Notes under the pieces: generated by a model
What the model was told of the DNA's origin: nothing
The model's database searches: none
Seen by the model: only the letters and a program-made list of their open reading frames with translations
Shown here: piece after piece, positions 10,808-28,135 of the stretch
How the letters are laid out: every line of letters begins with the position of its first letter
Position numbering within the stretch: position 1 is the stretch's first letter
Origin: Aequorivita antarctica
GTDB lineage: Bacteria; Bacteroidota; Bacteroidia; Flavobacteriales; Flavobacteriaceae
NCBI RefSeq assembly: GCF_007997155.1
Contig: NZ_VORT01000004.1
Coordinates: 124,001-188,000, forward strand
Direction of reading: 5' to 3'
Length of the DNA: 64,000 bases
Translations under genes and position numbers: made by a program

Positions 10808-11095
10808 ATGAGTTCTAAAAAAGCAATAGTCCTTCCAAAGTATCGAAAAATATTCGCACAAATAGGAGAAAATATAAAGCTTGCACGTAAAAGAAGGAAA
10901 CTCACCGCCGAACAGGTTTCGGAACGAGCAGGGATTCACAGGACTACTTTATACCGAATCGAGAAAGGCGATCCAGCAGTTGCCCTTGGATTATATTTTA
11001 ATGTTTTTAGAGTACTTAACCTACAGGATGATTTTCTTAAATTGGCGGTAGATGATACGTTTGGTAGAAAATTGCAAGATCTTGATCTATTATAA
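10808..11095 (+). CDS. HipB-like XRE antitoxin
   Basis: This 95-residue protein is an XRE helix-turn-helix regulator: the DNA-binding core runs from about residue 14 to 70 (IGENIKLARKRRKLTAEQVSERAG, then HRTTLYRIEKG). It lies 5 bases before a HipA-type kinase gene, the standard antitoxin-toxin order. The family binds and neutralises its HipA partner and represses the operon. The gene begins about 20 bases after a TTTGTTGTAAATAAG stretch that may hold the promoter. The fit is good for motif and context, although HipB proteins vary. Confidence 0.88.
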   Translation: MSSKKAIVLPKYRKIFAQIGENIKLARKRRKLTAEQVSERAGIHRTTLYRIEKGDPAVALGLYFNVFRVLNLQDDFLKLAVDDTFGRKLQDLDLL

Positions 11096-11100
11096 ATATT

Positions 11101-12351
11101 ATGGCGAAAGGAAAATTTGACATATACGTGTTTGCAGATTGGGCGGCACTTGAGAATCCAACTTTGGTCGGAATCCTTTCCGCTCATTTTGCCAAGGGCA
11201 AAAAAGCTTTTAGTTTTGAGTATGATAAAGATTGGTTGAAAACTGATGCGCAACGATTACTAGATCCAGATATTGAATTCTATCCAGGGCCCCAATACCC
11301 AACCAACAAAGAGAATTTCGGAATCTTTTTGGACAGTATGCCCGATACTTGGGGGAAAACTTTAATGAAACGTCGAGCGGCACAAGACGCTAGGACTAGG
11401 GGAGAGAAGGCAAAGAAGCTGTATGAAATAGATTACCTTCTTGGGGTCTATGATGAGAGTAGGATGGGGGCTTTACGCTTTAAAACAACACTGAACGGTC
11501 CCTTTTTGGACAATGACGATCAAAGTCCGACACCGCCTTGGTCCTCGCTAGGGGAGCTTCAGGAAGCGGTTAATCAATTGGAAGGTGATGATCAAAGTGA
11601 TGCTATTAGAAAATGGCTGGCTGTCTTGATTGCGCCTGGTTCCTCTTTAGGTGGGGCCCGACCCAAAGCAAATATTCTGGACGCCAATAAAAATCTATGG
11701 ATTGCGAAGTTTCCATCAAAAGCGGATACGATAGACAAAGCTGCTTGGGAATTTCTGGCTTATAAACTTGCCATAGCCGCAGGGATTGAAATGGCGGAAT
11801 CTTGTATAGAGCAGGTGAGTGGCCAATACCACACTTTTATGACCAAACGTTTTGATAGGGACAACGGAAAACGCGTTCATTTTGCCTCGGCAATGACAAT
11901 GACAGGGAAGACTGAAGATTCTATCAAGGATAGCGCGCCCAGTTATTTGGAAATTGTTGAGTTTATAGAGAATTACGGAGTTGATGTAAAAGCCAATCTA
12001 CATCAACTATGGCGCCGTATAGTATTTAATATTGCTATTTCTAATACGGATGATCATTTAGGGAATCACGGGTTTATCCTTAAAGAAAAGGGTTGGGTAT
12101 TATCACCTGCTTATGATTTAAATCCGTCTGTAGAGAAGGATGGCTTATCCCTGAATATTGATATGGAAGATAATGCCTTAGATTTTGAACTGGCGAAAAG
12201 TGTGGGGGCGTATTTTCGATTGAATGAAGCTGAAATGGAAAATATTTTGAATGAGATGAGGACTGTGGTTAAGGATTGGGAACAAGTTGCTATTGGAATT
12301 GGTATTAAAAGACGGGAGATTGAGATAATGGAGGGGGCTTTTAGGGGGTGA
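11101..12351 (+). CDS. HipA-like serine/threonine kinase toxin
   Basis: The 416-residue protein has the HipA layout: an N-terminal subdomain 1, the glycine-rich loop GSSLGGARPKA near residue 180, the lysine strand LWIAKFPS, the segment FMTKRFDRD, the catalytic loop SNTDDHLGNHG around 313-323 and the metal-binding motif SPAYDLNPS around 335-343. HipA kinases phosphorylate aminoacyl-tRNA synthetases or similar targets and stop growth. Since both key motifs are intact it is probably active. It forms a toxin-antitoxin pair with the preceding XRE gene and may stabilise the element or act in defence. Confidence 0.92.
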   Translation: MAKGKFDIYVFADWAALENPTLVGILSAHFAKGKKAFSFEYDKDWLKTDAQRLLDPDIEFYPGPQYPTNKENFGIFLDSMPDTWGKTLMKRRAAQDARTRGEKAKKLYEIDYLLGVYDESRMGALRFKTTLNGPFLDNDDQSPTPPWSSLGELQEAVNQLEGDDQSDAIRKWLAVLIAPGSSLGGARPKANILDANKNLWIAKFPSKADTIDKAAWEFLAYKLAIAAGIEMAESCIEQVSGQYHTFMTKRFDRDNGKRVHFASAMTMTGKTEDSIKDSAPSYLEIVEFIENYGVDVKANLHQLWRRIVFNIAISNTDDHLGNHGFILKEKGWVLSPAYDLNPSVEKDGLSLNIDMEDNALDFELAKSVGAYFRLNEAEMENILNEMRTVVKDWEQVAIGIGIKRREIEIMEGAFRG

Positions 12352-13458: not shown

Positions 13459-13622
13459 CATCTTTTAAAAAGATTGAAACTAAAATTTGCCTGTTGCGTA
13501 TTGTTATAGGAGGCTTATATGTAGTGCTTACTTTCTTACTAATATTGTTTGCATTGTATGCAGCTGATAATATTCAGTGGATTGATTTATCATCTTGGAT
13601 AACTTGGATATATTTTATCTAG
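13459..13622 (+). CDS. Possible small membrane protein without ATG start
   Basis: A frame of about 50 codons ends at TAG 13620-13622 and contains one strong membrane segment (VIGGLYVVLTFLLILFALYA) followed by an amphipathic WIDLSSWITWIYFI tail. No ATG is present; a TTG would have to be used. It overlaps the end of the ApeA-like gene tail to tail. It could be a true small membrane protein or a chance hydrophobic frame in AT-rich DNA. Confidence 0.2.
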
Positions 13623-15060
13623 GAATTTGTCTATTAATATCTGGATTAGAGTCGATTCTGTCTGCGATTTGGGTATGTTCCATACCAATAGAATCCAAGA
13701 TGCATATACAAAGTAGCGCCTGCGAAAATCCATATAATGAGTTCAAGTCTTCTCCTTGAAAGGTCTTGTTTATTTTACCGTGAGAAAGTTTATGTCTGTA
13801 CTCTTTTGCCTTATAAGGGTATGATTTAATTAAAGCCTTGTTTGCTCTAAGACTTATTAAAATATCTAAATATTTATCACATAGAAATTTAAGTTTATAT
13901 GACAAATTTGCCTGTTTCGGGAATCTTAAGTGATTGCCTACCCATTGTTTTAATTCCTTTGATTCTATGGCATTATAAACCTTTTGTCTTTCTGCTATGA
14001 AAGTCTCGTTTATATATTTGTATTCTGGATTCAAGTAATCATAATAGGCCTCTAAACCTTGTATCAAGTTCAAATAACGGTTATTAAAATTAACATTAGA
14101 AATAGCACCATCCTTGCCCCAGTCTATTGTATCAAGATAAAAATCATATATAGGTTGTAAATTTTGGTTTTGAAACCAATTTTTCATAAAATTATTTAAA
14201 GAATCTTCAGACTCTGTCCAACCACTAAAAAGTAACCAGTTTTGATTTAATTTACGTCGATTTTCAAATGGCTTTTGATTTAAGGTAAGACGACTGTAAA
14301 TATAAGTGTGCCCCATATTTTTCTCTACGTCATCTGATTTTTGAAGTATTAAATTTGTGTGTTGATGATGATTCTTGATGTTCTCAAAATCAATTTTCGC
14401 ACTTTTAATGATGAAGGCTAATTTCCTACGTGAAGAAAACTCCATCATTTTTTGAAGTGTGACACAATCTTGATATATCCTATCAATATCAACAGTTTTA
14501 TTATAGTTGAACTTAAGGTGGTTGCTGTGCTTGACTTCATAATTTTTGCTCATTGAAAATGTATGTCTTTTTGAGTCAACAATATCAATGCTCAGTTCAT
14601 CATCAATTCTAAACGTATTTGAAATTTTCACATATTCATTTCTTGGATTCTCCTCTTCATAATTCCTACTATTCCATCCGTTGTAGAAATTATCAGAATT
14701 TGGATATAAAACTTCAATATGATTAAACTTCAAATGAGTTCTTTGTAAGATATGAACATAATTAAAAACAAATTGAACACTGTAATGCAACTGGTATAAA
14801 TCCCCACCTATGGGTGCTAATTTTGAAAATGAGCAAGCAAAAAGAGTTATGTCGCCTAAGGGACTATTACTTGTATCGCCCAAGATAAGCTCAACATTAT
14901 TATCTTCTCGTTTTGTATTTGCAAACTCAAATTTGTTACCACTCAAATAGGAAGTAGTAAATAATTGTAGGGTTATCGTACTTTTATTGTCCTCCAGAAA
15001 TAATTTACCGGGTATCTTATTTTCTGAATTTGGTAAATACCAGAGACCCGATTCTTTCAT
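13615..15060 (-). CDS. ApeA-like HEPN abortive-infection protein
   Basis: The 481-residue protein starts with GLWYLPNSENKIPGKLFLED, which matches the N-terminal domain described for ApeA-type proteins, and has the HEPN active-site motif RHKLSH at about residues 422-427, inside a C-terminal helical domain. ApeA is a single-gene anti-phage protein in which HEPN nuclease activity is thought to stop infected cells. The middle region is mixed alpha/beta with no recognised domain. The gene stands alone on the minus strand inside the defence island. The motif is intact. The family match is from memory, but layout and length agree well. Confidence 0.8.
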   Translation of the reverse strand: MKESGLWYLPNSENKIPGKLFLEDNKSTITLQLFTTSYLSGNKFEFANTKREDNNVELILGDTSNSPLGDITLFACSFSKLAPIGGDLYQLHYSVQFVFNYVHILQRTHLKFNHIEVLYPNSDNFYNGWNSRNYEEENPRNEYVKISNTFRIDDELSIDIVDSKRHTFSMSKNYEVKHSNHLKFNYNKTVDIDRIYQDCVTLQKMMEFSSRRKLAFIIKSAKIDFENIKNHHQHTNLILQKSDDVEKNMGHTYIYSRLTLNQKPFENRRKLNQNWLLFSGWTESEDSLNNFMKNWFQNQNLQPIYDFYLDTIDWGKDGAISNVNFNNRYLNLIQGLEAYYDYLNPEYKYINETFIAERQKVYNAIESKELKQWVGNHLRFPKQANLSYKLKFLCDKYLDILISLRANKALIKSYPYKAKEYRHKLSHGKINKTFQGEDLNSLYGFSQALLCICILDSIGMEHTQIADRIDSNPDINRQIPR

Positions 15061-15571
15061 ATTTGTAACTTTTATAGCTGAAGCATTATTCAGAGATTAG
15101 TATTATTCAAATATGCCGAAATAAAATTTAACGTTATTGAGGAATCCCTCAAAAGAATGACTTTTTCTTTTTGTAATATTAGACTTTGTTAAGTTTTTTG
15201 GATTGACCCATTCCGTCAGCCAGCGGTGTTTTTATGCCGATTAAGATTTCTTTCTGCGACCATTTTCCTCTTAATTATTAATTGGCGGTTTGATTTAAAA
15301 TTGTTGCTAGGGGAAAGGGCTCTTGATTCTTTAAAATATCCTTATTATTATATAGTTAATTATGTTTTCATTTATTTCCCGTTAATCTCTTAATGTTGCA
15401 TAATACAGACAAGTTTTCATTTCTCTTAATTCCAGATTTAGGAAAACTGTTAAAATCCCCTTAAAATAAACTGTATATTTGAGGGAATTTACAAGGCTTT
15501 CACCCGTTTACGGAATCCCTCAAAGAAGTGAAGTGGCATTAATATATATTTGAAGGTTAATCAAATTGTCT
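15061..15571. other. Intergenic region between the ApeA-like gene and hsdR
   Basis: No gene is seen in these 511 bases. It holds a small hairpin, TTGAGG (15138-15143) with CCTCAA (15148-15153), and the 13-base sequence GGAATCCCTCAAA twice, at 15141 and 15512. A TATATTTG minus-7 box at 15545-15552 lies 20 bases before the hsdR ATG and probably drives the restriction operon. Confidence 0.5.
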
Positions 15572-17950
15572 ATGAAGAAAAAAGACTTATCAGAATCCGA
15601 CATAAAAGCAAAGTTTATCACTCCTGCCATCTTGAAGGCTGGATGGGATGAGCATACGCAGCTAGGTCGCGAGATTTTCTTCACTGACGGTCGGATCTAT
15701 GTGAAAGGTAAACTGACCGCAAGAGGAAAGCGAAAGTTTGCAGATTACATTCTGTTTTATAAACCCAATGTTCCTATTGCGGTAATTGAGGCAAAAGACA
15801 ATAAACACTCTGTTAGAGGTGGCATTCAACAAGCACTTGGATATGGAAATACTTTAGATATTCCCTTTGTCTTCAGTAGTAATGGAGATGGGTTTTATTT
15901 TCACGACAAAACAGCCACCGATGGCGAAATAGAAAGAGAGATTACTTTAGATGAATTTCCGAGTCCCGAAGAATTATGGACCAAGTACAAAAGATATAAG
16001 GGAATAGAAGCTGAGGAAGTTCAAGAAATAATTTCCCAAGATTATTTTCAAGATGGTTCTGGCTGTTCGCCACGATACTATCAACAAAATGCAGTAAACA
16101 GAACTATTGAGGCAGTTGCGAAGAAACAGCAACGAATCATTCTAGTGATGGCAACTGGAACAGGAAAAACATATACTGCGTTTCAGATCATTTATAGATT
16201 GTGGAAAAGTGGCGCAAAAAAGCGCATTTTGTTTTTAGCAGATCGTACGGCATTAATCGACCAAACCGCAAGAGGAGATTTTAGGCACTTTAAGGATGCT
16301 ATGACCATCATCAAACACAAGCAGATTGATACTGCCTACAATGTTTATTTAGCACTCTATCAAGGTCTGTCGGACAGTTATGGTACTGATGCTTATAAAC
16401 AATTTAGTCGTGAGTTTTTCGACTTGGTGATTATTGACGAATGCCACAGAGGAAGTGCGAAAGAAGATAGCAAATGGAGAGAAATATTAGAATACTTTAA
16501 TACTGCAACACATATTGGTTTAACCGCCACTCCAAAGGAAACAACAGAAGTTTCTAGTACAGAATACTTTGGAGAACCGATTTACACCTATTCCTTAAAA
16601 CAGGGAATTGACGACGGGTTTTTAGCGCCTTACAAAGTGGTTAAAGTAACATTGGACATAGATGCCGAAGGATGGCGACCACCGAAAGGATTTTTAGATA
16701 AGGAAGGCAATCCTGTGGAAGATAGGATTTACAATAGAACAGATTTTGATAAAAATATTGTTGTAGAAGAAAGACGAAAAGTAGTCGCTGCGAAAATCAC
16801 CGAATTTCTAAAAGGCTATGATCGTTTTGCAAAAAGTATTGTTTTCTGTATTGACATAGAGCACGCGGAAGGAATGCGAACCGCTCTGGTGAATGCAAAC
16901 GCTGATTTATTTGCGGAAAACAACAAATACATAATGCAAATCACTGGCGACAATCAAGAAGGAAAACGAGAGCTGGACAACTTTATCAATCCAAGTGAAA
17001 CGTATCCTGTTATCGCCACAACCTCGAAATTAATGACCACTGGTATTGATGCCCAAACCTGTAAATTAATTGTTTTGGATAGCAATATTGGTTCAATGAC
17101 CGAATTCAAACAGATTATTGGCCGAGGTACTAGAATCAATGAAGAATATGGCAAGACCTATTTTACAATAATAGATTTTAGAAATGTCACCAATCTTTTT
17201 GCCGACCCTGATTTTGATGGAGATCCAGTAATGATAAAAGTTGTAAGTGAAGATGAAGATCTATCAGGAACAGAAGATGAAACAGATGACAATCCAATTA
17301 TTGACATAGATGGAGAAGAGGTTGAATTTCCTGAAACACCTGATTATCCTGAAATTCAAGGTGGCGGTGATATTGCAGAAGAGCCAAGAGCTAAAATACG
17401 TGTTGATGGTGTACTAGTGAAGATTGTAAATGAAAGAGTTCAGTATTTAGGCTCGGATGGAAAAATCATTACAGAATCATTAAAAGATTACACCAAAAAG
17501 AGCATTACCAAACAATACAAAACCTTAGAGTCTTTCTTAAACACGTGGAACAATGCGGATAAGAAGAAAGTCATTGTAAGAGAATTGGAAGAACAAGGCA
17601 TCTTCTTTGAAGCGTTACAAGAAGAGGTAGGGAAAGAGTTTGATCCGTTCGATTTGATATGTCATGTAGCTTTTGAATCAAAACCCTTGACAAGAAAGGA
17701 AAGGGCTGAAAATGTGAAAAAACGCAACTATTTTACCAAATATGGCGATCAAGCCCAATTGGTGTTAAACAGCCTATTGGATAAATATGCCCAAGATGGT
17801 TTAATTACGATAGGTAGCACAGAGGTATTAAAACTCGATCCATTAAATAAATTAGGCACTGCAATGGAGTTAGTAAAAGCCTTCGGTGGTAAAACACAGT
17901 ATATGGAAGCATTAAAAGAATTAGAACAAGAACTATACAAATTAGCATAA
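15572..17950 (+). CDS. hsdR: Type I restriction enzyme subunit R (EcoEI-like)
   Basis: I chose ATG 15572 (792 residues) rather than an upstream TTG. The N-terminal nuclease domain has FADYILFYKPNVPIAVIEAKDNK (acidic-ExK core near residue 74). The helicase part has Walker A ATGTGKT at about 193-199, the DECH box at about 289, and TATP near 318. The C-terminal third fits the EcoEI R family. HsdR translocates and cuts unmethylated DNA in complex with M and S. The gene stops directly before hsdM. All key motifs are present, so the enzyme is probably functional. Confidence 0.95.
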   Translation: MKKKDLSESDIKAKFITPAILKAGWDEHTQLGREIFFTDGRIYVKGKLTARGKRKFADYILFYKPNVPIAVIEAKDNKHSVRGGIQQALGYGNTLDIPFVFSSNGDGFYFHDKTATDGEIEREITLDEFPSPEELWTKYKRYKGIEAEEVQEIISQDYFQDGSGCSPRYYQQNAVNRTIEAVAKKQQRIILVMATGTGKTYTAFQIIYRLWKSGAKKRILFLADRTALIDQTARGDFRHFKDAMTIIKHKQIDTAYNVYLALYQGLSDSYGTDAYKQFSREFFDLVIIDECHRGSAKEDSKWREILEYFNTATHIGLTATPKETTEVSSTEYFGEPIYTYSLKQGIDDGFLAPYKVVKVTLDIDAEGWRPPKGFLDKEGNPVEDRIYNRTDFDKNIVVEERRKVVAAKITEFLKGYDRFAKSIVFCIDIEHAEGMRTALVNANADLFAENNKYIMQITGDNQEGKRELDNFINPSETYPVIATTSKLMTTGIDAQTCKLIVLDSNIGSMTEFKQIIGRGTRINEEYGKTYFTIIDFRNVTNLFADPDFDGDPVMIKVVSEDEDLSGTEDETDDNPIIDIDGEEVEFPETPDYPEIQGGGDIAEEPRAKIRVDGVLVKIVNERVQYLGSDGKIITESLKDYTKKSITKQYKTLESFLNTWNNADKKKVIVRELEEQGIFFEALQEEVGKEFDPFDLICHVAFESKPLTRKERAENVKKRNYFTKYGDQAQLVLNSLLDKYAQDGLITIGSTEVLKLDPLNKLGTAMELVKAFGGKTQYMEALKELEQELYKLA

Positions 17951-19393
17951 ATGGCAAACGTAGGCGCTGTAATAAGCAGCATCAGAAATATAATGAGGCA
18001 AGACAGAGGAATCTCTGGCGATGCCCAACGATTGGAGCAACTGGGATGGATGTTGTTTCTGAAAATTATTGACGATAAAGATCAAGAATTAGAAATACTA
18101 AAAGACAATTATGTTTCTGTAATTCCGGAGAGATTTCAATGGAGATCCTGGGCTACAGATATCGAAGGGATTACAGGCGATGAACTCTTAGAGTTTATAG
18201 ATAGCAACGCACACGACAACAAAGGCTTGTTTGCTACACTTCGTGATTTGACAAGTATAACCAACCCAAAAAGGGCTGCTATTGTAAAAGAGGTTTTTGA
18301 AGGTTCAAACAACTATATGAAGTCAGGTTATGAAATGCGGAAAGTTATTAATAAACTAAATGAAGTTGACTTTAATAATTCCGAAGACAAACATGTTTTT
18401 GGAGATATCTACGAAAGTATTTTGGTGGAACTGCGTGATGCAGGAAACAAAGGCGAATACTATACGCCAAGAGCTGTTACGCAGTTAATGACCCAAGTGA
18501 TTGACCCAAAACTAGGTGAAAAGGTTTTAGACCCAGCAGCAGGTACGGGAGGGTTTTTAACCGCAGCAATTGATCACGTAAGAGAAAACTATGTTCATAC
18601 AGTAGCTGACGAACGTATATTACAGCAAAGCATTACCGGTTGGGAATTTAAACCTGTGGCTTATGTATTGGGATTGACAAATTTGATATTGCACGAAATG
18701 GATGTTCCCGACTATCATTATACGGATAGTTTAAAAAAGGAATACAACAGCATTGGCGCAAAAGACCGCGTAGATGTTATTTTGGCAAATCCACCTTTTG
18801 GCGCAAGCATTGCCGATGGCGTAGAAACCAACTTTCCAGCCACCTACCGATGCAAGGAATCTGCCGATTTGTTTGTTATATTGATGTTGCAACTATTAAA
18901 ACCAAGAGGACGTTGGGCTATTGTTTTGCCCGATGGGTCCATTACAGGCGATGGCGTAAAAGCAAGAATAAGAGAAAAACTATTGACCGATGCTAATTTA
19001 CATACCATTATACGTTTACCACAAAGCACCTTCTTTCCTGCTACGGTAAGTACCAACTTATTGTTTTTTGAAAAAGGAAGTAAAACCAAGGATATATGGT
19101 ATTACGAACACAAACTACCCGAAGGACAAAAATCGTATTCTAAAACTAAGCCTATTCAGTTTAATGAGTTTAAACCTATTATTGAATGGTGGAATGATAG
19201 AAAGGAAAGTGATGTTGCTTGGAAGGTGAATGTAAAGGATTTAAAAGATTGGGATTTGGATATTAAGAATCCTATCGTTGAGGTTGAAGAAGAGATGAAA
19301 TCTTCTGAAGAAATTATACAGCTAATGAATAAGTCTTTGATAGATGAAGAAAAGATAATTAGAGGAATTGAAAAAATACTAAAATCATTTTAA
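17951..19393 (+). CDS. hsdM: Type I DNA adenine methyltransferase subunit M
   Basis: The 480-residue protein begins immediately after the hsdR stop. It has the N-terminal HsdM helical domain, the SAM-binding motif DPAAGTGGF at about residues 194-202, and the catalytic NPPFG at about 279-283, the standard N6-adenine methyltransferase pair. With two HsdS-bound copies it protects host sites by methylation. The C-terminal 30 residues form a coiled-coil segment that may contact HsdS. Its stop codon overlaps the hsdS start by one base, so translation is coupled. There is no sign of damage. Confidence 0.96.
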   Translation: MANVGAVISSIRNIMRQDRGISGDAQRLEQLGWMLFLKIIDDKDQELEILKDNYVSVIPERFQWRSWATDIEGITGDELLEFIDSNAHDNKGLFATLRDLTSITNPKRAAIVKEVFEGSNNYMKSGYEMRKVINKLNEVDFNNSEDKHVFGDIYESILVELRDAGNKGEYYTPRAVTQLMTQVIDPKLGEKVLDPAAGTGGFLTAAIDHVRENYVHTVADERILQQSITGWEFKPVAYVLGLTNLILHEMDVPDYHYTDSLKKEYNSIGAKDRVDVILANPPFGASIADGVETNFPATYRCKESADLFVILMLQLLKPRGRWAIVLPDGSITGDGVKARIREKLLTDANLHTIIRLPQSTFFPATVSTNLLFFEKGSKTKDIWYYEHKLPEGQKSYSKTKPIQFNEFKPIIEWWNDRKESDVAWKVNVKDLKDWDLDIKNPIVEVEEEMKSSEEIIQLMNKSLIDEEKIIRGIEKILKSF

Positions 19394-21102
19394 TGAGAGC
19401 TTCGAAAAAACAAAACACTGAAGCTAATTTGAAAAAAGGTCAATATTTTCAATTTATAGTTTCTAAGCTTTCAAAAAACAAACCATTGTCAGATGAAAGT
19501 GCACAGATCAATTTTGATAATTTAAATAACGTTCGTTCTGAAAAATATAAGGGATCAAAAAAATTAAAACCCATAACAACATTACCGAAAAATCAAATAC
19601 CATTTGACATTCCTAAAAATTGGATTTGGTTGACTATTAAAGATGTAACCAAGTTAACAGACAATCTAAATATTCAAAAAGAGTTAAGACCAAATGACTT
19701 AGTTAACTATGTGGATATTTCCTGTATTGATAACAACAACCTAAAAATAAAGGAAGTTAAAACTAGTCAGGTAGATGAATTATCTTCAAGAGCGAGAAGA
19801 ATTTTAAAAAAGGATTTTTTTCTTTATTCGCTTGTTAGACCATATCTAAATAATATGGCTATTGTTGAAAAGGAAAAAGAATTGATGATTGGTTCAACTG
19901 GTTTTGCTGTTTTCGAAAGTTTCTATTTGCAGAATGAATTTTTAAAATCTTGGCTTCTTTCTCCATTTATCAAAGATTATTTTCTTGAAATGATTTCTGG
20001 ATTTAATTCTCCAAGTATTTCAATGAATCAGTTTTTGGATACTCCAATTCCTGTTGCACCGATTGAAGAACAAAAAGCAATAGTTTCTTTTTTTAACTCG
20101 TTAGAATCAAATAATAACGAAGAATTTAATACTCTGCCAAATGACCTTATTGATGGAATAGTTAAATTAGATAAACTGGAAGAATTTTCAAGTGTTTTAT
20201 TTGAAAATATAGAAAATCGTAAATTATTAATACCACAACTCAAACAATCCATACTTCAAGAAGCGATTCAAGGAAGGTTAACGGCAGATTGGCGAGCATC
20301 CCGAAAGCTTTCGGGACCAGATACAGAAGCTGCAATCGAATTGCTAAAAAGAATAAAGGCAGAGAAAGAACAATTAGTTAAAGACAAGAAAATTAAAAAG
20401 GAAAAAACTCTTCCACCTATTGGCGAAGAAGAAATTCCTTTTGAATTACCTGATGGTTGGGTTTGGTGTAGGTTGGGGGATTTATGTTCAAAAACGGGAG
20501 CAGGAAGTACTCCAAAAGGAGGTAGAGCTGCTTATCCTAATTATGGCATTAAGTTTTTAAGGTCACAAAATATTTATGATGAAGGTATAAGGTATGATGG
20601 AATAGTTTTCATTTCTAAAACAACTCATGAAAAAATGAAAGGTACAAAAGTCCAAGCAGAAGATTTATTACTAAATATTACTGGCGGTTCAATTGGAAGA
20701 TGTTGTATCGTTCCGAAGGATTTTGACACTGCAAATATTAATCAGCACGTAACAATAATTAGATCTGTTATTTTAGAAACTGGCTATTATCTGCATAAAA
20801 TAATTGGCTCTCCATATTTTCAAAATATGATTCTTGAAGTCCAAACTGGGGCAGGGAGAGAAGGACTTGCTAAAAATAAAATGGATAATATTTTAATAGC
20901 CTTTCCTCCTCTCGAAGAACAAAAAGCAATCGTAGAAAAAGTGGAAAGCTTAATCCAAAAATGCCAAGTTTTAGGGCAAGAAATAGAACGCAGTGAGGCC
21001 AATGCTCAAATGCTTATGCAGGCTGTTTTGAAGGAGGCTTTCCTGCCAGCCGAAGCGTCAGCGCAGGCAGGTGAGGGTGAGGTGGAAGTTGTTGAAGTTT
21101 GA
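19393..21102 (+). CDS. hsdS: Type I specificity subunit S, with two in-frame palindrome insertions
   Basis: The 569-residue protein has two target-recognition domains, each opening with a P-F-[DE]-[IL]-P-x-[NG]-W motif (about residues 70-78 and 346-354) and closing with the conserved EEQKAIV helix (about 225-231 and 515-521). The central linker contains a perfect 18-bp palindrome (20299-20316) translated as SRKLSG within RASRKLSGPD. The C-terminus (PAEASAQAGEGEVEVVEV) is encoded by a second imperfect palindrome (21042-21071). Both look like dispersed repeats that inserted without breaking the frame. The subunit sets the sequence recognised by the restriction complex. It is probably still functional. 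Confidence 0.93.
   Translation: MRASKKQNTEANLKKGQYFQFIVSKLSKNKPLSDESAQINFDNLNNVRSEKYKGSKKLKPITTLPKNQIPFDIPKNWIWLTIKDVTKLTDNLNIQKELRPNDLVNYVDISCIDNNNLKIKEVKTSQVDELSSRARRILKKDFFLYSLVRPYLNNMAIVEKEKELMIGSTGFAVFESFYLQNEFLKSWLLSPFIKDYFLEMISGFNSPSISMNQFLDTPIPVAPIEEQKAIVSFFNSLESNNNEEFNTLPNDLIDGIVKLDKLEEFSSVLFENIENRKLLIPQLKQSILQEAIQGRLTADWRASRKLSGPDTEAAIELLKRIKAEKEQLVKDKKIKKEKTLPPIGEEEIPFELPDGWVWCRLGDLCSKTGAGSTPKGGRAAYPNYGIKFLRSQNIYDEGIRYDGIVFISKTTHEKMKGTKVQAEDLLLNITGGSIGRCCIVPKDFDTANINQHVTIIRSVILETGYYLHKIIGSPYFQNMILEVQTGAGREGLAKNKMDNILIAFPPLEEQKAIVEKVESLIQKCQVLGQEIERSEANAQMLMQAVLKEAFLPAEASAQAGEGEVEVVEV
20299..20316. repeat. Palindromic repeat inserted in hsdS
   Basis: TCCCGAAAGCTTTCGGGA is a perfect 18-bp palindrome inside the hsdS linker. 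This palindrome is, from memory, frequent between genes in Flavobacteriaceae. Its occurrence in frame inside a gene is unusual. Confidence 0.7.
21042..21071. repeat. Second imperfect palindrome at the hsdS 3' end
   Basis: CCTGCC (21042-21047) pairs with GGCAGG (21066-21071) around an 18-base middle that is partly complementary. It encodes the odd alanine-rich end of HsdS and resembles dispersed intergenic repeats of this group. Confidence 0.5.
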
Positions 21103-21416
21103 AAACACGCTAAAATTATTAATAAGGTTTCCTAGTTGTAGCTCTCCAAGAACAATGGAATAAACACTTTATATAAGTTGTGTATACTCAATAACGGTAA
21201 AGTGAAAAGCTGAATTATTTTATAAATTTAGCGTCCATGCCATATCAAACTTCAGTGCTTGTAGCTCTCACCAAACTGGGCATACAGGAAGTAGTTATCA
21301 GTAACTTAAACACAACTTCATCAAAAAACATAACTGATTTTCAGAGTTTTTAAATAATTCCCTATATTCAAAAAAATATAATCTGTTTTTTTATTAACTG
21401 TCTGCTATATTTTATG
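21103..21416. other. Intergenic region between hsdS and the retron
   Basis: No gene is visible. TTGTAGCTCTC occurs twice (near 21136 and 21259), too few and too short for a CRISPR array. The region is otherwise AT-rich and ends at the retron promoter. Confidence 0.4.
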
Positions 21417-21424
21417 TATATTTG
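21417..21424 (+). promoter_or_regulatory. Minus-7 box of the retron transcript
   Basis: TATATTTG matches the TAnnTTTG consensus exactly. Transcription should start near 21430, just before the structured leader. Confidence 0.5.
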
Positions 21425-21429
21425 TATCA

Positions 21430-21715
21430 ATAAATAGTTCTTTGAAAAGATGTTTCGAAGTCGAATTGCTAAATGGAGTTCACTTGACAGCCTGAAAAGG
21501 CAACCCAATTGGGTATTTTAACGGCACACATACCTCGCCCTAGATATCAACAGATACGTTAGGAGAGATTTTAACTGCGGTTAACTATTGCTACTTTATT
21601 TTAAGGAGCAGGGAATTTTAAGTGAGTGTAAGAGAACATTGTTTACACATTTAGTAACAGGCAAGATTTAGGCGAAGGAGCAGGGCCAACAATAATGTTG
21701 ACCTGTAACTAAATT
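21430..21715 (+). ncRNA. Candidate retron ncRNA (msr-msd)
   Basis: About 290 non-coding bases between a promoter box and the first retron gene are full of hairpins: GCCT-GAAA-AGGC (21490-21501), CCCAATTGGG (21504-21513), TTAAC-TGCG-GTTAA (21571-21584), GTGTAA (21626-21631) with TTACAC (21643-21648), TTTAGTAACAGG (21650-21661) with CCTGTAACTAAA (21702-21713, one mismatch), and CAACAATAATGTTG (21687-21700). The last long stem ends in a T-run. GGAGCAGGG occurs twice (21605 and 21677). Retron RTs use such an RNA, transcribed just upstream, as both primer and template. I could not place the a1/a2 repeats or the branching G with confidence. Confidence 0.6.
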
Positions 21716-21722
21716 TTTTTAT

Positions 21723-21941
21723 ATGTCTAGATTAAAACAATATCGAAACATTGATAGTTTGATACAAAGTATTAAGACTATTAGAAAGAGCCAGTGTTCT
21801 CTTTCGGAGGAAGACTTAAATGTCTTGAATGAAGCATTAGAAATTCTATCTGTGCTTAAAAGGAAAAAGGGTAGAACGAATGAGCAAGTCCTAACGGAAA
21901 TTGTGAAAGTCGTCGAATTATTATCTAAATTTTTCCTTTAA
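21723..21941 (+). CDS. Small helical protein of the retron operon
   Basis: This 72-residue frame starts 10 bases after the last ncRNA hairpin. The product (SRLKQYRNIDSLIQSIKT, then LNVLNEALEILSVLKRK) is predicted to be two or three amphipathic helices with heptad-like leucines, suggesting a coiled coil or small bundle. No family is recognised. Since it lies between the ncRNA and the XRE gene, on the same strand, it may be a third protein of the retron, but its 5' end could also be an artefact of open DNA at the msd end. It would be the least certain part of the system. Confidence 0.5.
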   Translation: MSRLKQYRNIDSLIQSIKTIRKSQCSLSEEDLNVLNEALEILSVLKRKKGRTNEQVLTEIVKVVELLSKFFL

Positions 21942-22010
21942 AACAGATGCTATGAACGTACAATGTAAATTAACAATCCGAACACTCCTTAATTTTTCAC
22001 ACTAAACAAA

Positions 22011-22301
22011 ATGGATTTAGGTATAACTATAAAAAATATCAGAAAGCAAAAAAAGCAAACTCAAACCGAGTTTGCTTTAGCTTGTGGTATTACTCAAACT
22101 TATCTTTCCCAAATAGAAAGTAATCAAAGAGAACCTAATCTTTCAACTTTGAAATTAATAAGTATTGAACTGAATGTTCCATTGCCTATTTTATTTTTTT
22201 TATCACTCGACAAAGAAGATGTGGAAGAGAATAAGAGAGAGGCTTTTGAAATTATTGATCCTTCAATAAAATCTCTTGTGAATGAATTCTTTGCAGTTTA
22301 A
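22011..22301 (+). CDS. XRE-type helix-turn-helix protein of the retron
   Basis: The 96-residue protein is an XRE/Cro regulator (DLGITIKNIRKQKKQTQTEFAL, then ITQTYLSQIESNQREPNLSTL) with a hydrophobic tail ending SLVNEFFAV. It overlaps the RT start by 20 bases, so the two are translationally coupled. One published class of retrons carries exactly such an HTH protein as its accessory component (called type VI in the classification I recall). It could act as repressor or as the toxic effector guarded by the RT-msDNA complex. The motif is clear; the role is inferred from context. Confidence 0.85.
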   Translation: MDLGITIKNIRKQKKQTQTEFALACGITQTYLSQIESNQREPNLSTLKLISIELNVPLPILFFLSLDKEDVEENKREAFEIIDPSIKSLVNEFFAV

Positions 22302-23145
22302 AAAAAATGAATTCAAAAAACTATGTGCTACAATAGGATTTAAGCCTACAATAGTCTCAGATGTAATTTCTAATGTTGATAAATTCTATTACGAAAAGGT
22401 TGAAATCAAAAAAGACAAAAAAACTGGAGAAGTCAAAAAGTATAAGGATGGAACGGTCAAGAAAAGAACGCTTCATCCTTCTACAAAGGAATTAAAGGCA
22501 ATACAAAAATCTCTAAAAAAGAATATTCTCGCTCCAATCTCATTACCAATTGAAGTACACGGGGGAGTGAAAAAGAGAAGCAATATTACCAACGCTAAAC
22601 CTCACAAAGGCAATAAATTCATTTTCACTACAGACTTACAAGACTTTTATCCGAATATTAGCAATAGCCATGTCAATGAAACATTTTTGAGTTTAGGCTT
22701 TTCAAATCACTTTTCAAATTCTTTAACAAAGTTAACTACTTGGAAATATGCTCTTCCCCAAGGAACACCAACTAGTACACATATATCAAATTTGGTTTTC
22801 CTCAAAACAGATTTTGAATTAATCCAATTGTGTAACGCTAATAATATAACATACACAAGATATGTAGATGACTTAACTTTTTCATCTCCTATTGACTTTA
22901 GACATCTTCTAAATATAATTCTTGAAATAATTAAAAAAAACAACTTCAAAATAAGTTATCGAAAAACGAAGTACAAAGGAAATCAAACAGTAACAGGAAT
23001 TAATATTTTCCTAAACAAAATAGAAGCACCAGAACATATTAAGGAAAAATCCAAAATAGAAATAGAGAATAATACTGAAATGAAACCATACTCTATCTAT
23101 TTGGAAAATATACAAAAGGAAAACAAACGAAAGGGTAGCCGCTAA
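22282..23145 (+). CDS. Retron reverse transcriptase
   Basis: This 287-residue RT has the standard finger-palm motifs: FIFTTDLQDFYPNIS at 113-127, LPQGTPTS at 158-165, and the catalytic YVDD at 194-197. It also carries both retron hallmarks: the NAxxH motif as NAKPH at 104-108 and VTG at 237-239. Retron RTs copy part of their own ncRNA into msDNA linked to the RNA and work as anti-phage systems together with an effector. Basic residues fill the C-terminal thumb. The gene is part of an ncRNA-72-aa-XRE-RT locus in the middle of a defence island. Length is somewhat short, but all palm motifs are intact. Confidence 0.93.
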   Translation: MNSLQFKKNEFKKLCATIGFKPTIVSDVISNVDKFYYEKVEIKKDKKTGEVKKYKDGTVKKRTLHPSTKELKAIQKSLKKNILAPISLPIEVHGGVKKRSNITNAKPHKGNKFIFTTDLQDFYPNISNSHVNETFLSLGFSNHFSNSLTKLTTWKYALPQGTPTSTHISNLVFLKTDFELIQLCNANNITYTRYVDDLTFSSPIDFRHLLNIILEIIKKNNFKISYRKTKYKGNQTVTGINIFLNKIEAPEHIKEKSKIEIENNTEMKPYSIYLENIQKENKRKGSR

Positions 23146-23359
23146 AGTGCTACATGAAATATATCTAGTAAAGAAAACATAGCTATTAAAGATTTACCGA
23201 GAAGTTTGTGTTTATTTGGGAAGACTTTCAACTTTGATTTTTGATATATTTATAAAATGAAAATACATAGAAATTAAAAATTCGTTTCTGTTTTACTTTA
23301 TAAATGTAGTGTCTTTTTATACGCTACGTTCCTTATAACAACTAGCTAAAATTACAACA

Positions 23360-24073
23360 ATGACTAAATATAAAAGGAGACTACCTTCAGAAGTACTTAA
23401 CTCTCGACCTGAGATTAGAGAAACTGAAACGGCCATTTTAAAAGGTTTGATAGGAAGTATTCCAGCGGTAGGAACCTTGATAAATGAAATTTTATTTGAA
23501 AGTGCGAACAGAGTATATCAATCAAGAGTAAATGAAACAGTAGAAATCTTGAAGGAGAAAATTTCAAATATTGAAACAACACAAGTAAATAGAGAATATT
23601 TGAATAGTCCAGATTTTTTTGATTATACTAATGAGCTTTTCAAAAATATACTAAAAGCTAGATCAAGAGAAAAGAAGGAAGCTCTATCAAAAATGTATAT
23701 TGAATCATTTGTGAAAGAATCTCAATTTGAAACAGATACTATTCGTTTATTTATGAATTTTGTAACAGAATTAAATTTAGTTCAAATCAATATTTTAAAA
23801 TTTGTAAAAGAAAATCAGGACGAATTAATGGGTGTTGCTTCCTTTTTAAATTTTCACGGAAAATATTCATCCTTTCAAGGCGCATATAAATTAAGCAGAT
23901 TTGAATTTAAATATTATTCCTCTGATTTAGAAAGCAAATCTCTTTTAAGCTTTGGGGCTGGATTGTCTGACTATTTCGATACTTCAAAAACTCTGGCTTT
24001 AGAGGATCACCACGATCCTTCTGCAATTCTAACTGAATTAGGAAGAGAATTTATAACTTATTTAACCAACTAA
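23360..24073 (+). CDS. Unknown helical protein, possible membrane-acting effector
   Basis: The 237-residue protein begins with a basic stretch, then a hydrophobic segment ILKGLIGSIPAVGTLINEIL at about residues 27-46, followed by a long helical region and a C-terminal winged-helix-like end with LTELGREFITYL. Small proteins with an N-terminal IP-x-G-type hydrophobic segment are found near phage-defence genes, but I cannot name a family. It starts 214 bases after the RT and has its own leader, so it may be an additional retron effector or an independent defence gene. Its function is not known. Confidence 0.6.
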   Translation: MTKYKRRLPSEVLNSRPEIRETETAILKGLIGSIPAVGTLINEILFESANRVYQSRVNETVEILKEKISNIETTQVNREYLNSPDFFDYTNELFKNILKARSREKKEALSKMYIESFVKESQFETDTIRLFMNFVTELNLVQINILKFVKENQDELMGVASFLNFHGKYSSFQGAYKLSRFEFKYYSSDLESKSLLSFGAGLSDYFDTSKTLALEDHHDPSAILTELGREFITYLTN

Positions 24074-24118
24074 CTTTGAGTAACCCAAAACTGAGATAAA
24101 AAAGTACTCTTTTCTTCA

Positions 24119-24335
24119 TCAATACCCTCTTCCAATATCAACCACTTCTATCAGTTCCTCGCCATCCTTCATCGCTTAATAATTCCGCAAGATTTTTTGC
24201 ACAGGCGATTCTGGATGAACGTTTCCAGCAGTATGTGGCGTAATCATAATCTCCTCGCCTTACCAAAAAGAATGATCCTTGGTCAGAGGTTCATAGCGGA
24301 TTGTGAGCACACGTTTCAGATATGCGAGGGCAATA
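24119..24335 (-). pseudogene. Remnant of a D-2-hydroxyacid dehydrogenase C-terminus
   Basis: Read on the minus strand in one frame, this stretch gives EPLTKDHSFW, stop, then EEIMITPHTAGNVHPESPVQ, a second in-frame stop, and KDGEELIEVVDIGRGY before the natural stop at 24119-24121. ITPHTAG followed by an EEL-EVVD-GY tail is the C-terminal signature of NAD-dependent D-2-hydroxyacid dehydrogenases. Only about 65 codons survive, and two stops break them. It is therefore a fossil of a normal metabolic gene among defence genes, presumably part of DNA displaced when the island was built. The rest of this 360-base gap holds nothing else. Confidence 0.7.
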
Positions 24336-24433
24336 GTTTTATATCTACTAATAATCAGAATGGTTATAACAGATAGTGATGGATAGTCCAATAAAAATTA
24401 TTAGATGGCACTTTTAATTGATAATTTTGTAAA

Positions 24434-25318
24434 ATGTTTTATAGAAGAAAATTGGTGTTTGCTTTATTAGAGAATTTTGAAAACGGTCTTGAAAAGACTC
24501 GTCTTCAAAAATTAATTTTTTTATTAACTAAAAAGCAAAAAAATCCTAATTACGATTTTGTTCCTTACCGCTTTGGGTGTTACTCTTACTCTTTAAAAGC
24601 AGATTTACAAGCAATGGTAAAAAGAGATTGGATTACAATTTCTGAAAGAGGTTATGAATTAAAAACTGAAAAGAAGTATTACAATGAGTTACGTACAGAC
24701 GATAAAAAAATTGTTGATGATACTATCTCACTTTATGGGAAAATGAATACTGAACAAATAACTAAGCATACTTATTTAAATTTCCCTTATCACGCCATTA
24801 ATAGTACAATTGCAAAAAATATTCTGCCTGAAAAATATTATCTGCGCGTTGAAGAAGCTAAACCTAAAACTGATGAAACTATATTGTTTACTATTGGGTA
24901 TGAAGGTATATCCTTAGAAGAGTATCTTAATAGGCTAATAAAAAATGATGTGAAGCTCTTGGTAGATGTTAGAAGAAATCCACTAAGTCAAAAGTTTGGT
25001 TTTAGTAAAAAACTATTAAGCGGTTTCTGTGATAATTTAGGAATTGATTATTTACATATTCCAGAAGTTGGCATTGACTCGAGTAAAAGAAGAGAATTGA
25101 ATACTCAAAAAGATTACGATATCTTATTCGATGAGTACAATAATACAGTACTTGAAGAAACAATAGAGAGTCAAGATCATATACTCCTACTGTTGAAAAA
25201 ACATAAAAGAATAGCACTCACTTGTTTTGAAGCGGAAACTTGTCAGTGTCATAGAACGCATTTAGCTGAGAAAATAGAAAAATCGCCTACATTTAAATAT
25301 AAATTACAACACATTTAA
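24434..25318 (+). CDS. DUF488 protein with an extra N-terminal domain
   Basis: The C-terminal half (from about residue 150) is a DUF488 domain with its conserved points: TIGYEG at about 154-159, DVRRNP at 178-183, and CFEAETCQCHR at 263-273. The N-terminal 140 residues (RRKLVFALLENF, LQKLIFLLTK, VPYRFGCYSYSL) look like an SocA/Panacea-type or winged-helix domain, a weak match from memory. DUF488 function is unknown, but it recurs in defence neighbourhoods. The stop lies 3 bases before the next gene, so the two form an operon. The fusion and pairing suggest a distinct two-gene system, possibly defence or toxin-antitoxin. Confidence 0.75.
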   Translation: MFYRRKLVFALLENFENGLEKTRLQKLIFLLTKKQKNPNYDFVPYRFGCYSYSLKADLQAMVKRDWITISERGYELKTEKKYYNELRTDDKKIVDDTISLYGKMNTEQITKHTYLNFPYHAINSTIAKNILPEKYYLRVEEAKPKTDETILFTIGYEGISLEEYLNRLIKNDVKLLVDVRRNPLSQKFGFSKKLLSGFCDNLGIDYLHIPEVGIDSSKRRELNTQKDYDILFDEYNNTVLEETIESQDHILLLLKKHKRIALTCFEAETCQCHRTHLAEKIEKSPTFKYKLQHI

Positions 25319-25321
25319 TGA

Positions 25322-26143
25322 ATGGCGATTACAAAAGTTCTTATAACCGTAAAGACCTATCCTTCTCTTTCGGCTAGATATGGAGAGCTAGTCTGTACTG
25401 CTGGATTTCTTGAAGATGGATCTTGGATAAGACTCTACCCAATTCCTTTTAGAAAACTCAAGTACGATGAAAAGTATAAGAAGTATCAATGGATTGAACT
25501 AGATATAGTTAAAAACAATAAAGATTTTAGACCGGAAAGTTTTAGACCTGCTACCATCGATACACCTATAACTTTATTAGATACTATTGACACCAAAGGA
25601 AACTGGTATAAGCGGAAGCAAGTTGCCCTCAATAATATTTATACAGATATAAAATCACTTATTGCCGAAGCACATAATAAAGAAATCTGCACCTCGCTCG
25701 CAGTTTTTAAGCCAACAAAAGTTTTGGACTTCAAAATTGAAAAAGTTTCCTCTGAATGGGATAAAAAAAAGATTGATCAACAAAAAGCTCTTAATGACCA
25801 GGGCAATCTTTTTGAAATGGAAGAATTGCCGTTTGAAGTTGTAGAAAAACTACCTTATAAGTTTTCTTATGTGATTGAAGATGAAAATGGTGTTTCTAGT
25901 ACTATGATGATTGAAGATTGGGAGATTGGACAATTATATAGAAACACATTGGCAGCTGCAGAAGGTAATGAAGCTATTGCTGTTCAAAAAGTAAAAGAAA
26001 AATACTTTGATTCTTTTGCTCTTAAAAAAGATTTACATCTGTATTTAGGAACTACAAAAGCTTTTCATTATCGATCTAAAAACCCTTTTATGATTATAGG
26101 CACATTTACGCCAAATATAGAAATTCAGATCTCTCTCTTTTAA
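25322..26143 (+). CDS. Conserved hypothetical partner of the DUF488 protein
   Basis: The 273-residue protein starts KVLITVKTYPSLSARYGELV, followed by CTAGFLEDGSWIRLYPIPFR, a distinctive opening with a strand-rich pattern that may be an OB-type fold (a dual-OB assignment is possible but from memory only). The C-terminus ends RSKNPFMIIGTFTP, also strand-like. No catalytic motif is apparent and there is no signal or membrane segment. It is separated from the DUF488 gene by 3 bases, and no other gene on this strand follows. The pair has the look of a nucleic-acid-recognising partner and an effector, but this is inference. Confidence 0.65.
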   Translation: MAITKVLITVKTYPSLSARYGELVCTAGFLEDGSWIRLYPIPFRKLKYDEKYKKYQWIELDIVKNNKDFRPESFRPATIDTPITLLDTIDTKGNWYKRKQVALNNIYTDIKSLIAEAHNKEICTSLAVFKPTKVLDFKIEKVSSEWDKKKIDQQKALNDQGNLFEMEELPFEVVEKLPYKFSYVIEDENGVSSTMMIEDWEIGQLYRNTLAAAEGNEAIAVQKVKEKYFDSFALKKDLHLYLGTTKAFHYRSKNPFMIIGTFTPNIEIQISLF

Positions 26144-26301: not shown

Positions 26302-27153
26302 CTATTTTTCATTTAACCCGTTAACTATGTTTTGAATACTCTGCAGCACCTCTTCATAGTAGATGGTTTTATGTGTTTCAATAATTTGATTGATGAGTAT
26401 GCTTTCTGCTTTTTTGTTTAGTTCTTCATTTAAAATCTCTAAAATTGATACTATGGTTTCGGGGTGATTTTTTAGGAGTTCTTTGATATCTATTCCTAGT
26501 AGAACTGCTGCTGCAGTAGTATTCTTAAACGGTTCGATTCCATATACCTGGTCGTAATAATTGGTGGCAGCTCTTTCTTCGTGAATGGATAAATAATTTC
26601 CAAGAATAAACCCTATATCATCTGCATCCTTATTGTTAGTCTGGTTTCGGTCTTTCCAAGCAATTATTTTTAATATGAAAATACCGGTGAGAGAGGCGAT
26701 TTTTATTTCGGTTTCATTGTCGATTTTCACTTTTAGCGCGGATTCATCGGCAGCGGAAAATCCTAGAACAGACATTGCTAGTTCTTCATTTGGTGGCCAA
26801 AATATCTTGTAATTACTTTTCATTATATCACCAAATGGCACAATATCTAATGGGAAGTTTCCACGATAGAGAAAGCGTTGTTTTTGATTTGGATCTTTGT
26901 TGAAGTTTTCAAGATTGATGATGTCGTCTTCCACTTTTTTCCATTGTTCCCAATCATTTACTGTGATGGCGATATCGAGATCGTAGGTTAATCGACCAGA
27001 AGTCTCATTATGCAATTCCATTATAATGTCTCTGGCTGTTGCACCTATTACAAAAAAGGAAATGCCTGCTTCTTTGAAGTAGGCGGTAAGCTCCAAAAGA
27101 ATTGGCTTTAATAACGGATGTGAAAAATTTGCACTAGATATGTTGTAACTCAT
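26302..27153 (-). CDS. AbiEii-like nucleotidyltransferase toxin
   Basis: The 283-residue protein is a nucleotidyltransferase of the AbiEii/DUF1814 kind: VIGATARDI at about 37-45 and TYDLDIAI at about 58-65 give the GS-like and DxD-type motifs, and a third conserved area with KDADDIGFIL follows near 195. AbiEii toxins transfer nucleotides to tRNA or another acceptor and stop growth. The gene overlaps the preceding antitoxin gene by 20 bases, the coupled arrangement typical of AbiE. Catalytic residues appear intact. Confidence 0.85.
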   Translation of the reverse strand: MSYNISSANFSHPLLKPILLELTAYFKEAGISFFVIGATARDIIMELHNETSGRLTYDLDIAITVNDWEQWKKVEDDIINLENFNKDPNQKQRFLYRGNFPLDIVPFGDIMKSNYKIFWPPNEELAMSVLGFSAADESALKVKIDNETEIKIASLTGIFILKIIAWKDRNQTNNKDADDIGFILGNYLSIHEERAATNYYDQVYGIEPFKNTTAAAVLLGIDIKELLKNHPETIVSILEILNEELNKKAESILINQIIETHKTIYYEEVLQSIQNIVNGLNEK

Positions 27154-28135
27154 TCTCTAGTATTTTTTTAGCGGTTTCGATATTTCTTCCATACCCACTA
27201 TTCATTAAATCGGCATATATTAAAAGTGGTGGTGCTGTTTGGCTACCATTTGTATCATTTCTCCAGAATTTTTGGAGGATTTCAATGTTCCCATCTTCAC
27301 TAGGAATCAGGTGTAATTTGCTGGCAACTTCTGATAGTTCTAGATTAGTAAAGACAGTAAACTCTTCAGGTCTTAGACTTTCCGTGAGAATTGCTGCTCC
27401 GGGTTCGCCTCCCCAAAGAATAAAGCCATTTTGGGAATGAATATCTATGTTACGCCAATTTTTTAATTGTTCTGGATCTATGAAACGCATTCGTTTTCTT
27501 AAGATTCGAGGCCTGAGCACCGCATTAAAATCTACCACCCAACGTTCTAAGAGATCTGAGGTATTCTTAAGAATTCGTTCATTATTTATTTTTAGTAGAT
27601 AGTGCAGTTCTTCTAGTTCTGCCATAACATTACTTACTGAACCAATAGATACGTTGGCCTGTTCTGCTATTACTCTGTAAGAATCTTGAAGATGCTCGGG
27701 ATTATTCAATAAGTGAAATAGAATTTTTAATCCGGTTTCTTGAAAAGCGCGAGATTGATTGGTTTTATCCTTTTTTGTGGTTTTTTGACCTTCGACGAAA
27801 ATTGCTAAATCTTTATATTTTATATACGCATTGCCCGCAACATCTATATAATTAATTCCTCGTTCTTTAAGTTCTTGAGTTGCTTTTTTAGAAATATATT
27901 CCGCTATTAAAACAATAGGCCTATTGCTATCGTTTTTGATTTCCTCCAATTGAGCTAAAACAAAACCTTGGTTAGATGTTCTAACAGTAGATTTGGTCTC
28001 TACAATAAATTGTAAATCATTTATAGTTAAGAGTGCATCATAATTGTTCCGATTGCTATCTACTTGTATAGGGATATCGATAAGTTGTTCTAACTTTGAA
28101 GTAGCTTCGTAAATAAAGTCATTGTTACGATACAT
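27134..28135 (-). CDS. AbiEi-like antitoxin and repressor
   Basis: The 333-residue protein has a nuclease-like N-terminal fold (YDALLTINDLQFIVETKST, then IVLIAEYISKKATQELKERG), a winged helix around residues 130-185 (SYRVIAEQANVSIGSVSNVM) and a C-terminal AbiEi-like part. The family binds inverted repeats in its own promoter and blocks the partner nucleotidyltransferase without direct contact (type IV). Just upstream lie four GTTCA-type half-sites (28144-28198), the expected operator. The coupled downstream toxin completes the module. The system can act as abortive infection or stabilise the element. Confidence 0.85.
   Translation of the reverse strand: MYRNNDFIYEATSKLEQLIDIPIQVDSNRNNYDALLTINDLQFIVETKSTVRTSNQGFVLAQLEEIKNDSNRPIVLIAEYISKKATQELKERGINYIDVAGNAYIKYKDLAIFVEGQKTTKKDKTNQSRAFQETGLKILFHLLNNPEHLQDSYRVIAEQANVSIGSVSNVMAELEELHYLLKINNERILKNTSDLLERWVVDFNAVLRPRILRKRMRFIDPEQLKNWRNIDIHSQNGFILWGGEPGAAILTESLRPEEFTVFTNLELSEVASKLHLIPSEDGNIEILQKFWRNDTNGSQTAPPLLIYADLMNSGYGRNIETAKKILENELQHI

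Follow-up and report, generated by a model that had tools for sequence, protein, structure and literature searches.

Complementarity between the putative msd RNA and the small-protein cistron of a type VI retron points to a candidate switch operated by reverse transcription

The putative msd RNA of a type VI retron in Aequorivita antarctica carries two adjoining elements, A and B, that are complementary to two sites in and just behind the cistron of the retron's small protein (SP). In our opinion, the balance of the evidence tips in favor of a clamp, in which the msd RNA would hold the SP cistron shut and reverse transcription would open it. The pairing is computational; repression, release and the toxicity of SP are what we infer from it. 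All coordinates refer to the 64,000-nucleotide stretch of DNA that was analysed (the window), and all features of the retron lie on its forward strand.

Sequence inspection confirms the layout of the locus (21417–23145) that had been proposed in a first-pass annotation of this DNA: a promoter-like box and a structured leader are followed by a 72-aa ORF, an XRE gene and, last, the gene for a retron RT. The box, TATATTTG at 21417–21424, is of the TAnnTTTG type, and we take it to be a promoter −7-like box of the Bacteroidota consensus; it reads TATATTTG, TATATTTA or TATTTTTG in an alignment of six sequences (A1). Upstream of it, inspection by eye revealed no clear −33 box. Directly past the box, GTTCTTTGA (21437–21445), which we presume may be a boxA-type antitermination site, is invariant in A1 and visible too in several distant leaders. 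The non-coding leader extends to 21722 and is followed by the genes for SP (72 aa, 21723–21941), the XRE/HTH protein (96 aa, 22011–22301) and the RT (287 aa, 22282–23145), the last two of which overlap by 20 bases. Leader and genes are close-set on the same strand, and a single transcript probably serves as both retron RNA and SP-HTH-RT mRNA. The order SP-HTH-RT was found again in relatives; thus, the arrangement is not due to chance. The genome itself (3.84 Mb) contains one match to the window RT.

Each of the three proteins matches a type-specific PADLOC model: SP matches SP_VI (7.1e-26, residues 1–72 on 1–68 of 68), the XRE protein HTH_VI (1.7e-28; Pfam HTH_3, 2.5e-15) and the RT RT_VI (1e-68; Pfam RVT_1, 1.5e-15). 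For this reason the locus is assigned to type VI, and the earlier claim of a complete HTH-bearing retron is confirmed. The 72-aa ORF that the first-pass annotation had listed as unrecognised is indeed present, and it is the known small protein of this type, matched over its full length. Retron RTs are characterized by the motifs NAxxH, YxDD and VTG, and the NAKPH and VTG previously read in this RT are there, as is YVDD. In an alignment of 19 RTs, the window's included, N104, A105, H108, D196, D197 and T238 do not vary, and G239 hardly does. By PADLOC model scores, the RT falls within retrons, RT_VI (229.6 bits) being 51 bits ahead of the next-best model, RT_III-A (178.3 bits, 5e-53). All 19 aligned RTs match RT_VI at 1e-10, as well as models for other retron RTs; in each of the six RTs that were inspected singly, RT_VI scored best. 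To judge by its sequence, the locus is an ordinary type VI retron of known architecture and a probable anti-phage system.

Defence-type genes (R-M, AbiE-like, ApeA-like and HipA-like) occur nearby. An XRE gene followed by a gene for a HipA-like kinase (HipA_C, 4.6e-50) forms a HipBA-type pair at 10808–12351, and the protein encoded at 13615–15060 (reverse strand) combines an ApeA N-terminal domain (Pfam 4.7e-18) and an ApeA-like HEPN domain (8.9e-11), which make its gene a likely defence gene. A type I restriction-modification operon (15566–21102; HsdR, HsdM and HsdS by Pfam) lies directly upstream of the retron; in its HsdS frame, a palindrome, CCCGAAAGCTTTCGGG, was noticed by eye at 20300–20315. 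Downstream, the 237-aa ORF at 23360–24073 matches just the window's own copies among the fetched loci, plus 19 residues at E 8.3; lacking matches in relatives, it is probably outside the system. Next come a DUF488 gene and its partner (24434–26143), which are full-length PADLOC PDC-M19A/B matches (1.5e-125 and 8.6e-124) and a candidate defence pair, an AbiEi/AbiEii-like pair (26302–28135, reverse strand; Pfam 1.2e-22 and 2.8e-5), and a gene for a TraG-type conjugation ATPase (32465–34861, reverse strand; 1.9e-62), for two neighbours of which Pfam gave no match. It is possible that the defence genes are carried by a conjugative element.

The leader is able to adopt a retron RNA fold. The segment 21430–21750 folds at −80.1 kcal/mol (z = −4.2), with none of 100 shuffles as stable. 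The retron inverted repeat is formed by a1 (21466–21475) and a2 (21648–21657), with the branching G presumably adjoining a1, and a consensus fold of five close sequences places two msr hairpins, GCCTGAAAAGGC and ACCCAATTGGGT, at 21490–21514. In that fold, two pairs of the first hairpin and three of the ten pairs of the a1:a2 stem are altered on both sides, and the overall covariation term is slightly unfavorable (+1.22). Across 15 loci, a1 x a2 pairing scores 23.1 in native combinations versus 17.7 in swapped ones (sd 0.85), with 0 of 20,000 swaps as high; the Riemerella plasmid locus L036 is excluded from this count because no a1 was found in its 330-nt leader. The first-pass annotation had called the leader structured and had expected a conserved stem in homologues. 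Both expectations hold, the a1/a2 stem being conserved and covarying by consensus fold and permutation; complementarity between the template and the SP cistron did not figure in that reading. The borders of msd are inferred. An Rfam scan of 21100–24500 returned four matches (E up to 5), none of which reached its family's cut-off.

Related loci were drawn from several collections. The closest RT relatives (86–87%) are those of Saonia flava and Allomuricauda taeanensis and of two further genomes of the window's family, which may be of the same species. Of 395 genomes of the phylum, the one that holds the window among them, 18 contain a match to the RT at 1e-30, and a match to SP_VI at 1e-3 occurs in 11. 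Plasmids yielded eight matching records, of which five were taken and three used (L036, L037 and L038). A search of viral contigs, reaching close relatives only, found no relative. In a phage collection, the window RT matched two Staphylococcus phages (49% coverage, 1e-20), and the RT of L008 led to 27 phage records; nine were taken and six used, L046 having been dropped because no regulator gene is annotated before its RT and L048 and L049 because they come without annotation. Seven other candidates (L017–L021, L039, L040) were dropped for want of a BLAST match to the window HTH or SP. Four loci (L009, L011, L012 and L037) have related RTs and a small ORF with both antisense elements, and no HTH ORF was found in them. 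RT_VI is the best RT model in both L011 and L037, and the small proteins of these two have no SP_VI match; the HTH-less loci are possibly a subtype. L036 has SP, HTH, RT and both antisense elements, and the start of a gene for an IS30-family transposase lies some 295 bases upstream of its SP.

The near-identical loci L001, L002, L005 and L033 were excluded from the tests of elements A and B, of a1 x a2 and a2 x a3 pairing and against the same operon; some of the remaining loci are related to each other (the window, L003, L025 and L036; also L007 and L010). L016 and L034 are included in the swapped-pair test of element B and in the same-operon tests, and are left out of the covariation analysis of B, the 21-locus test of A, the a1 x a2 and a2 x a3 tests and whole-region folding; the 18-locus ungapped test of A includes L016 and excludes L034. 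L043, which is close to L042, is counted among the 24 loci for B and left out for A, for whole-region folding and for the same-operon tests. Registers and search windows were chosen after seeing the data, except for four loci of a later set. That set comprised 13 loci: L051, L053 and L054 repeat earlier ones, L057, L059, L060 and L062 lie in long frames and were unused, and of the six inspected, L061 has no clear SP and the SP of L052 is apparently truncated, leaving four that were scored. Of these, L050 was scored with phage-type windows because its SP is short. By eye, the SP of L052 seems to be without start and leader, and its RT match contains a stop; from these signs, it is probably a decayed copy.

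Element B of the putative msd, AAGAGAACATTG at 21630–21641, is complementary, with one G-U pair, to CAGTGTTCTCTT at 21792–21803, i.e., to SP codons 24–27, and the element and its target vary together among relatives. In 14 Bacteroidota loci, the native score is 23.3 versus 18.3 for swapped pairs (sd 0.9; 0 of 20,000 as high) and versus 17.4 for synonymous recodings of the target (0 of 300), a control that falls below 0.05 in only 5 of the 14 loci taken singly. The target starts at the same codon position in 12 of 14 loci, the exceptions being L016 and L034; these two, of 18 Bacteroidota loci, keep SP-HTH-RT and have no element B in register. In L014, the SP motif is very different, and element B carries the matching change. 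When the four HTH-less RT relatives and the six phage loci are added (24 loci), 0 of 50,000 swaps score as high, or 1 of 50,000 after removal of four redundant loci. The HTH-less loci alone give 75/2,000. The phage loci alone give 2,588/50,000; therefore, the support from phages is suggestive only.

With duplex B held to a fixed 11-bp register in 16 Bacteroidota loci, 168 of 176 cells are paired (95.5%), a figure that leans towards structure because the register was picked by best match; the swapped-pair tests are free of this fault, since every swapped pair was also given its best match. Compensatory changes affect 10 of the 11 pairs, in 40 cells versus 10.1 after shuffling, and covariation is 0.764 versus 0.231 shuffled and 0.075–0.197 when the register is slid. 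Measured against other windows of the same operon, which have the operon's own base composition, element B reaches p<0.05 in 15/18 Bacteroidota and 3/5 phage loci. Three of the four later loci do so as well (L058, 0.003; L050, 0.023; L056, 0.026; L055, 0.091).

Element A, TTAAGTGAGTGT at 21618–21629, is complementary, with a 1-nt bulge, to ACACTCCTTAA at 21982–21992, between the SP stop and the HTH start. The target lies partly inside a stretch conserved in A1; in relatives, it precedes the HTH gene, or the RT gene in loci without HTH. Element A adjoins B on its 5′ side; of 21 loci, 18 have a spacing between −2 and 6 nt. When the leader takes the retron fold, some bases of element A are paired with 21480–21487 instead. 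The ungapped score over 18 loci is 24.2 versus 19.6 swapped (sd 0.92; 0/20,000), and 1/20,000 for the 13 Bacteroidota loci alone. With bulges allowed, 21 loci score 25.4 versus 18.6 (sd 0.9; 0/50,000), the four HTH-less loci giving 88/2,000 and five phage loci 433/50,000. In the same-operon control, p<0.05 is reached in 12/18 Bacteroidota and 2/5 phage loci, and among the later loci in two of four (L058, 0.003; L055, 0.042; L056, 0.72; L050, 0.84), so that in L058 both elements are below this level. The window's own match is weak, with an ungapped same-operon p of 0.21, and 11 of the 21 element A targets score at least equally high against the window leader; the gapless match in L025, by comparison, spans 18 nt. 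It is thus from the sequences of relatives, and not from the window's own match, that the support for element A comes.

These patterns bear on whether the matches have a function at all. The msd could be a recent copy of SP sequence and the complementarity its relic, as might be suggested by element B being, one G-U aside, the reverse complement of a piece of SP. Two facts speak against such an origin: both sites differ across loci yet remain paired, and two separate sites are matched. We therefore consider it very improbable indeed.

We favor the clamp. As the helices that A and B form with their targets are nested, a single transcript can close round the SP cistron. The clamp, formed in cis or through another copy in trans, would block translation of SP and perhaps of the next gene. 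An RT priming at a1/a2 would copy B first and A next; element B lies 6 nt into the predicted copy in the window, and the distance is 5–12 nt in eight other loci whose a1 is credible. RNase H might strip away the RNA once it has been copied, or that RNA might be held by the DNA, whose sense is that of the target; in either case the clamp would open. The RT-DNA itself would have mRNA sense and be unable to bind the mRNA. Since copying, with RNase H, would remove the antisense, we propose that reverse transcription opens SP translation. SP would then be made and would stop the infected cell. Its place under the control of the clamp, together with an amphipathic C-terminal helix, is what suggests SP as the effector. 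Moreover, element A sits over the leader of HTH-RT (in loci without HTH, over that of RT), and opening may thus raise RT too, in a positive loop. The HTH protein would probably repress the promoter.

The a2 arm has a second possible partner near the SP start. The inverted repeat I3 pairs an arm at 21649–21661, which overlaps a2, with a3 (CCTGTAACTAAAT, 21702–21714), which ends 8 nt upstream of the SP ATG; a2 can thus be used by a1 or by a3. The a2 x a3 score over 16 loci is 17.7 native versus 14.5 swapped (1 of 20,000 as high), and the best a1 and a3 arms compete for overlapping a2 bases in 7 of the 22 loci listed. When the whole region is folded without constraints, duplex B has a mean probability of at least 0.78 in 17 of 21 loci; the duplex is absent from this fold in L010, L037, L038 and L047, and in L014 it varies with the folded length (0.88 vs 0.06). 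Seven loci were folded at three lengths, ending at a2, just past the ATG, or with the full region. In the window, a1:a2 has a probability of just 0.23 when the leader ends at a2 and 0.87 when it extends to just past the ATG; the full region gives 0.73 for a2:a3, 0.93 for B and 0.01 for a1:a2. L012 depends on length as the window does, L025 shifts partially, and in L009 a2:a3 is formed already in the leader. With the full region, L011 forms B and neither a1:a2 nor a2:a3, L037 forms none of the three, and L014 favors a1:a2, the opposite direction to the window. Since a clean switch is predicted in two of seven loci (the window and L012), we put forward the two-state picture as a hypothesis.

A different role for the DNA would follow if the locus worked as retrons are described to work in passages of two reviews, one of them PMC13158370, for Ec86, Ec83 and Eco8. 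In such a tripartite system, the RT-msDNA would hold a protein effector (SP, perhaps with HTH) that is freed when a phage attacks the msDNA, and the pairing of template and SP cistron would do no more than help the RNA to keep its shape or shield it. The locus does have an RT, an RNA and accessory proteins. This account gives no reason for the complementarity of the template to two separate sites of the SP cistron, for the compensatory changes between distant loci, or for the a2:a3 alternative at the SP start; we think it unlikely to be the right one. If the switch reading is true, the msDNA is a translation activator, not a sequestering antitoxin.

The complementarity could also be real with the protein roles exchanged, SP being a neutraliser or adaptor, HTH the effector or regulator, and the RNA switch setting their ratio. 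Such an exchange agrees with the position of element A, which falls in the leader of HTH or, in loci without HTH, in that of RT. AlphaFold2 predicts SP as a compact protein of three helices (3–22, 29–47 and 53–68; mean pLDDT 82), not an obvious pore former. The C-terminal helix is amphipathic by computation. A structure search of PDB returned 88 matches with E up to 10, all of them above 0.001 and none informative. However, four loci keep the small ORF and both elements with no HTH ORF found upstream, and HTH therefore seems dispensable; in phage loci, moreover, the small proteins are short, net positive and amphipathic. We regard the exchange of roles as distinctly improbable. If the clamp reading is correct, the template sequence itself tells what the retron controls, the roles of SP and DNA in type VI become testable by a few synonymous or compensatory changes, and caution is due in replacing msd freely in retron-based DNA-writing tools.

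Among known systems, the proposed clamp has a functional counterpart in type I toxin-antitoxin pairs, in which a complementary RNA covers the message for a small protein of hydrophobic or amphipathic character. The likeness would lie in an RNA complementary to a small-protein mRNA and in repression; the difference is that the complementary RNA is here part of the upstream leader, encoded in the orientation of the mRNA itself, and would serve the RT as its template. A preprint titled 'Reverse transcribed ssDNA derepresses translation of a retron antiviral protein' reportedly exists and may already describe the same principle. In the literature searched, which covered few subscription papers or preprints and included parts of PMC8541194, PMC8934634, PMC12948488, PMC12548924, PMC13405049, PMC10264812 and PMC13158370, we found no description of template sequences complementary to the SP cistron.

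Type VI retrons are described in the same terms as this locus in a section of PMC8541194, citing Mestre et al. 2020. The locus shares with them three proteins that match the type-specific models, a regulator gene ahead of that for the RT, and a leader that carries a retron repeat. We see no difference in content between them and the locus. The same section compares type VI retron-like elements of the phages Escherichia virus P2_2H1, Klebsiella ST147-VIM1phi7.1, Shewanella MuM16-1 and Burkholderia KS5, to which our search adds two, in Yersinia vB_YenM_56.17 and Pasteurella Pmp14. The phage elements resemble the locus in having a related RT (with an RT_VI match in five, that of Klebsiella not being among those scored), a regulator-sized gene before the RT and a short ORF before that, and weaker traces of both antisense elements. 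They differ in that SP is 48–67 aa long (with starts as called here) and net positive, and in that the target of B is at nt 18–32 of the ORF rather than at 51–92. Whether type VI retrons as a class, in Bacteroidota and in phages of Proteobacteria, are RT-operated RNA switches, in which a bipartite antisense clamp is opened by DNA synthesis that turns on SP and HTH/RT and amplifies itself, is a question on which we find the scales level. The locus is, then, one more type VI retron, and the candidate general switch is the less expected part of it.
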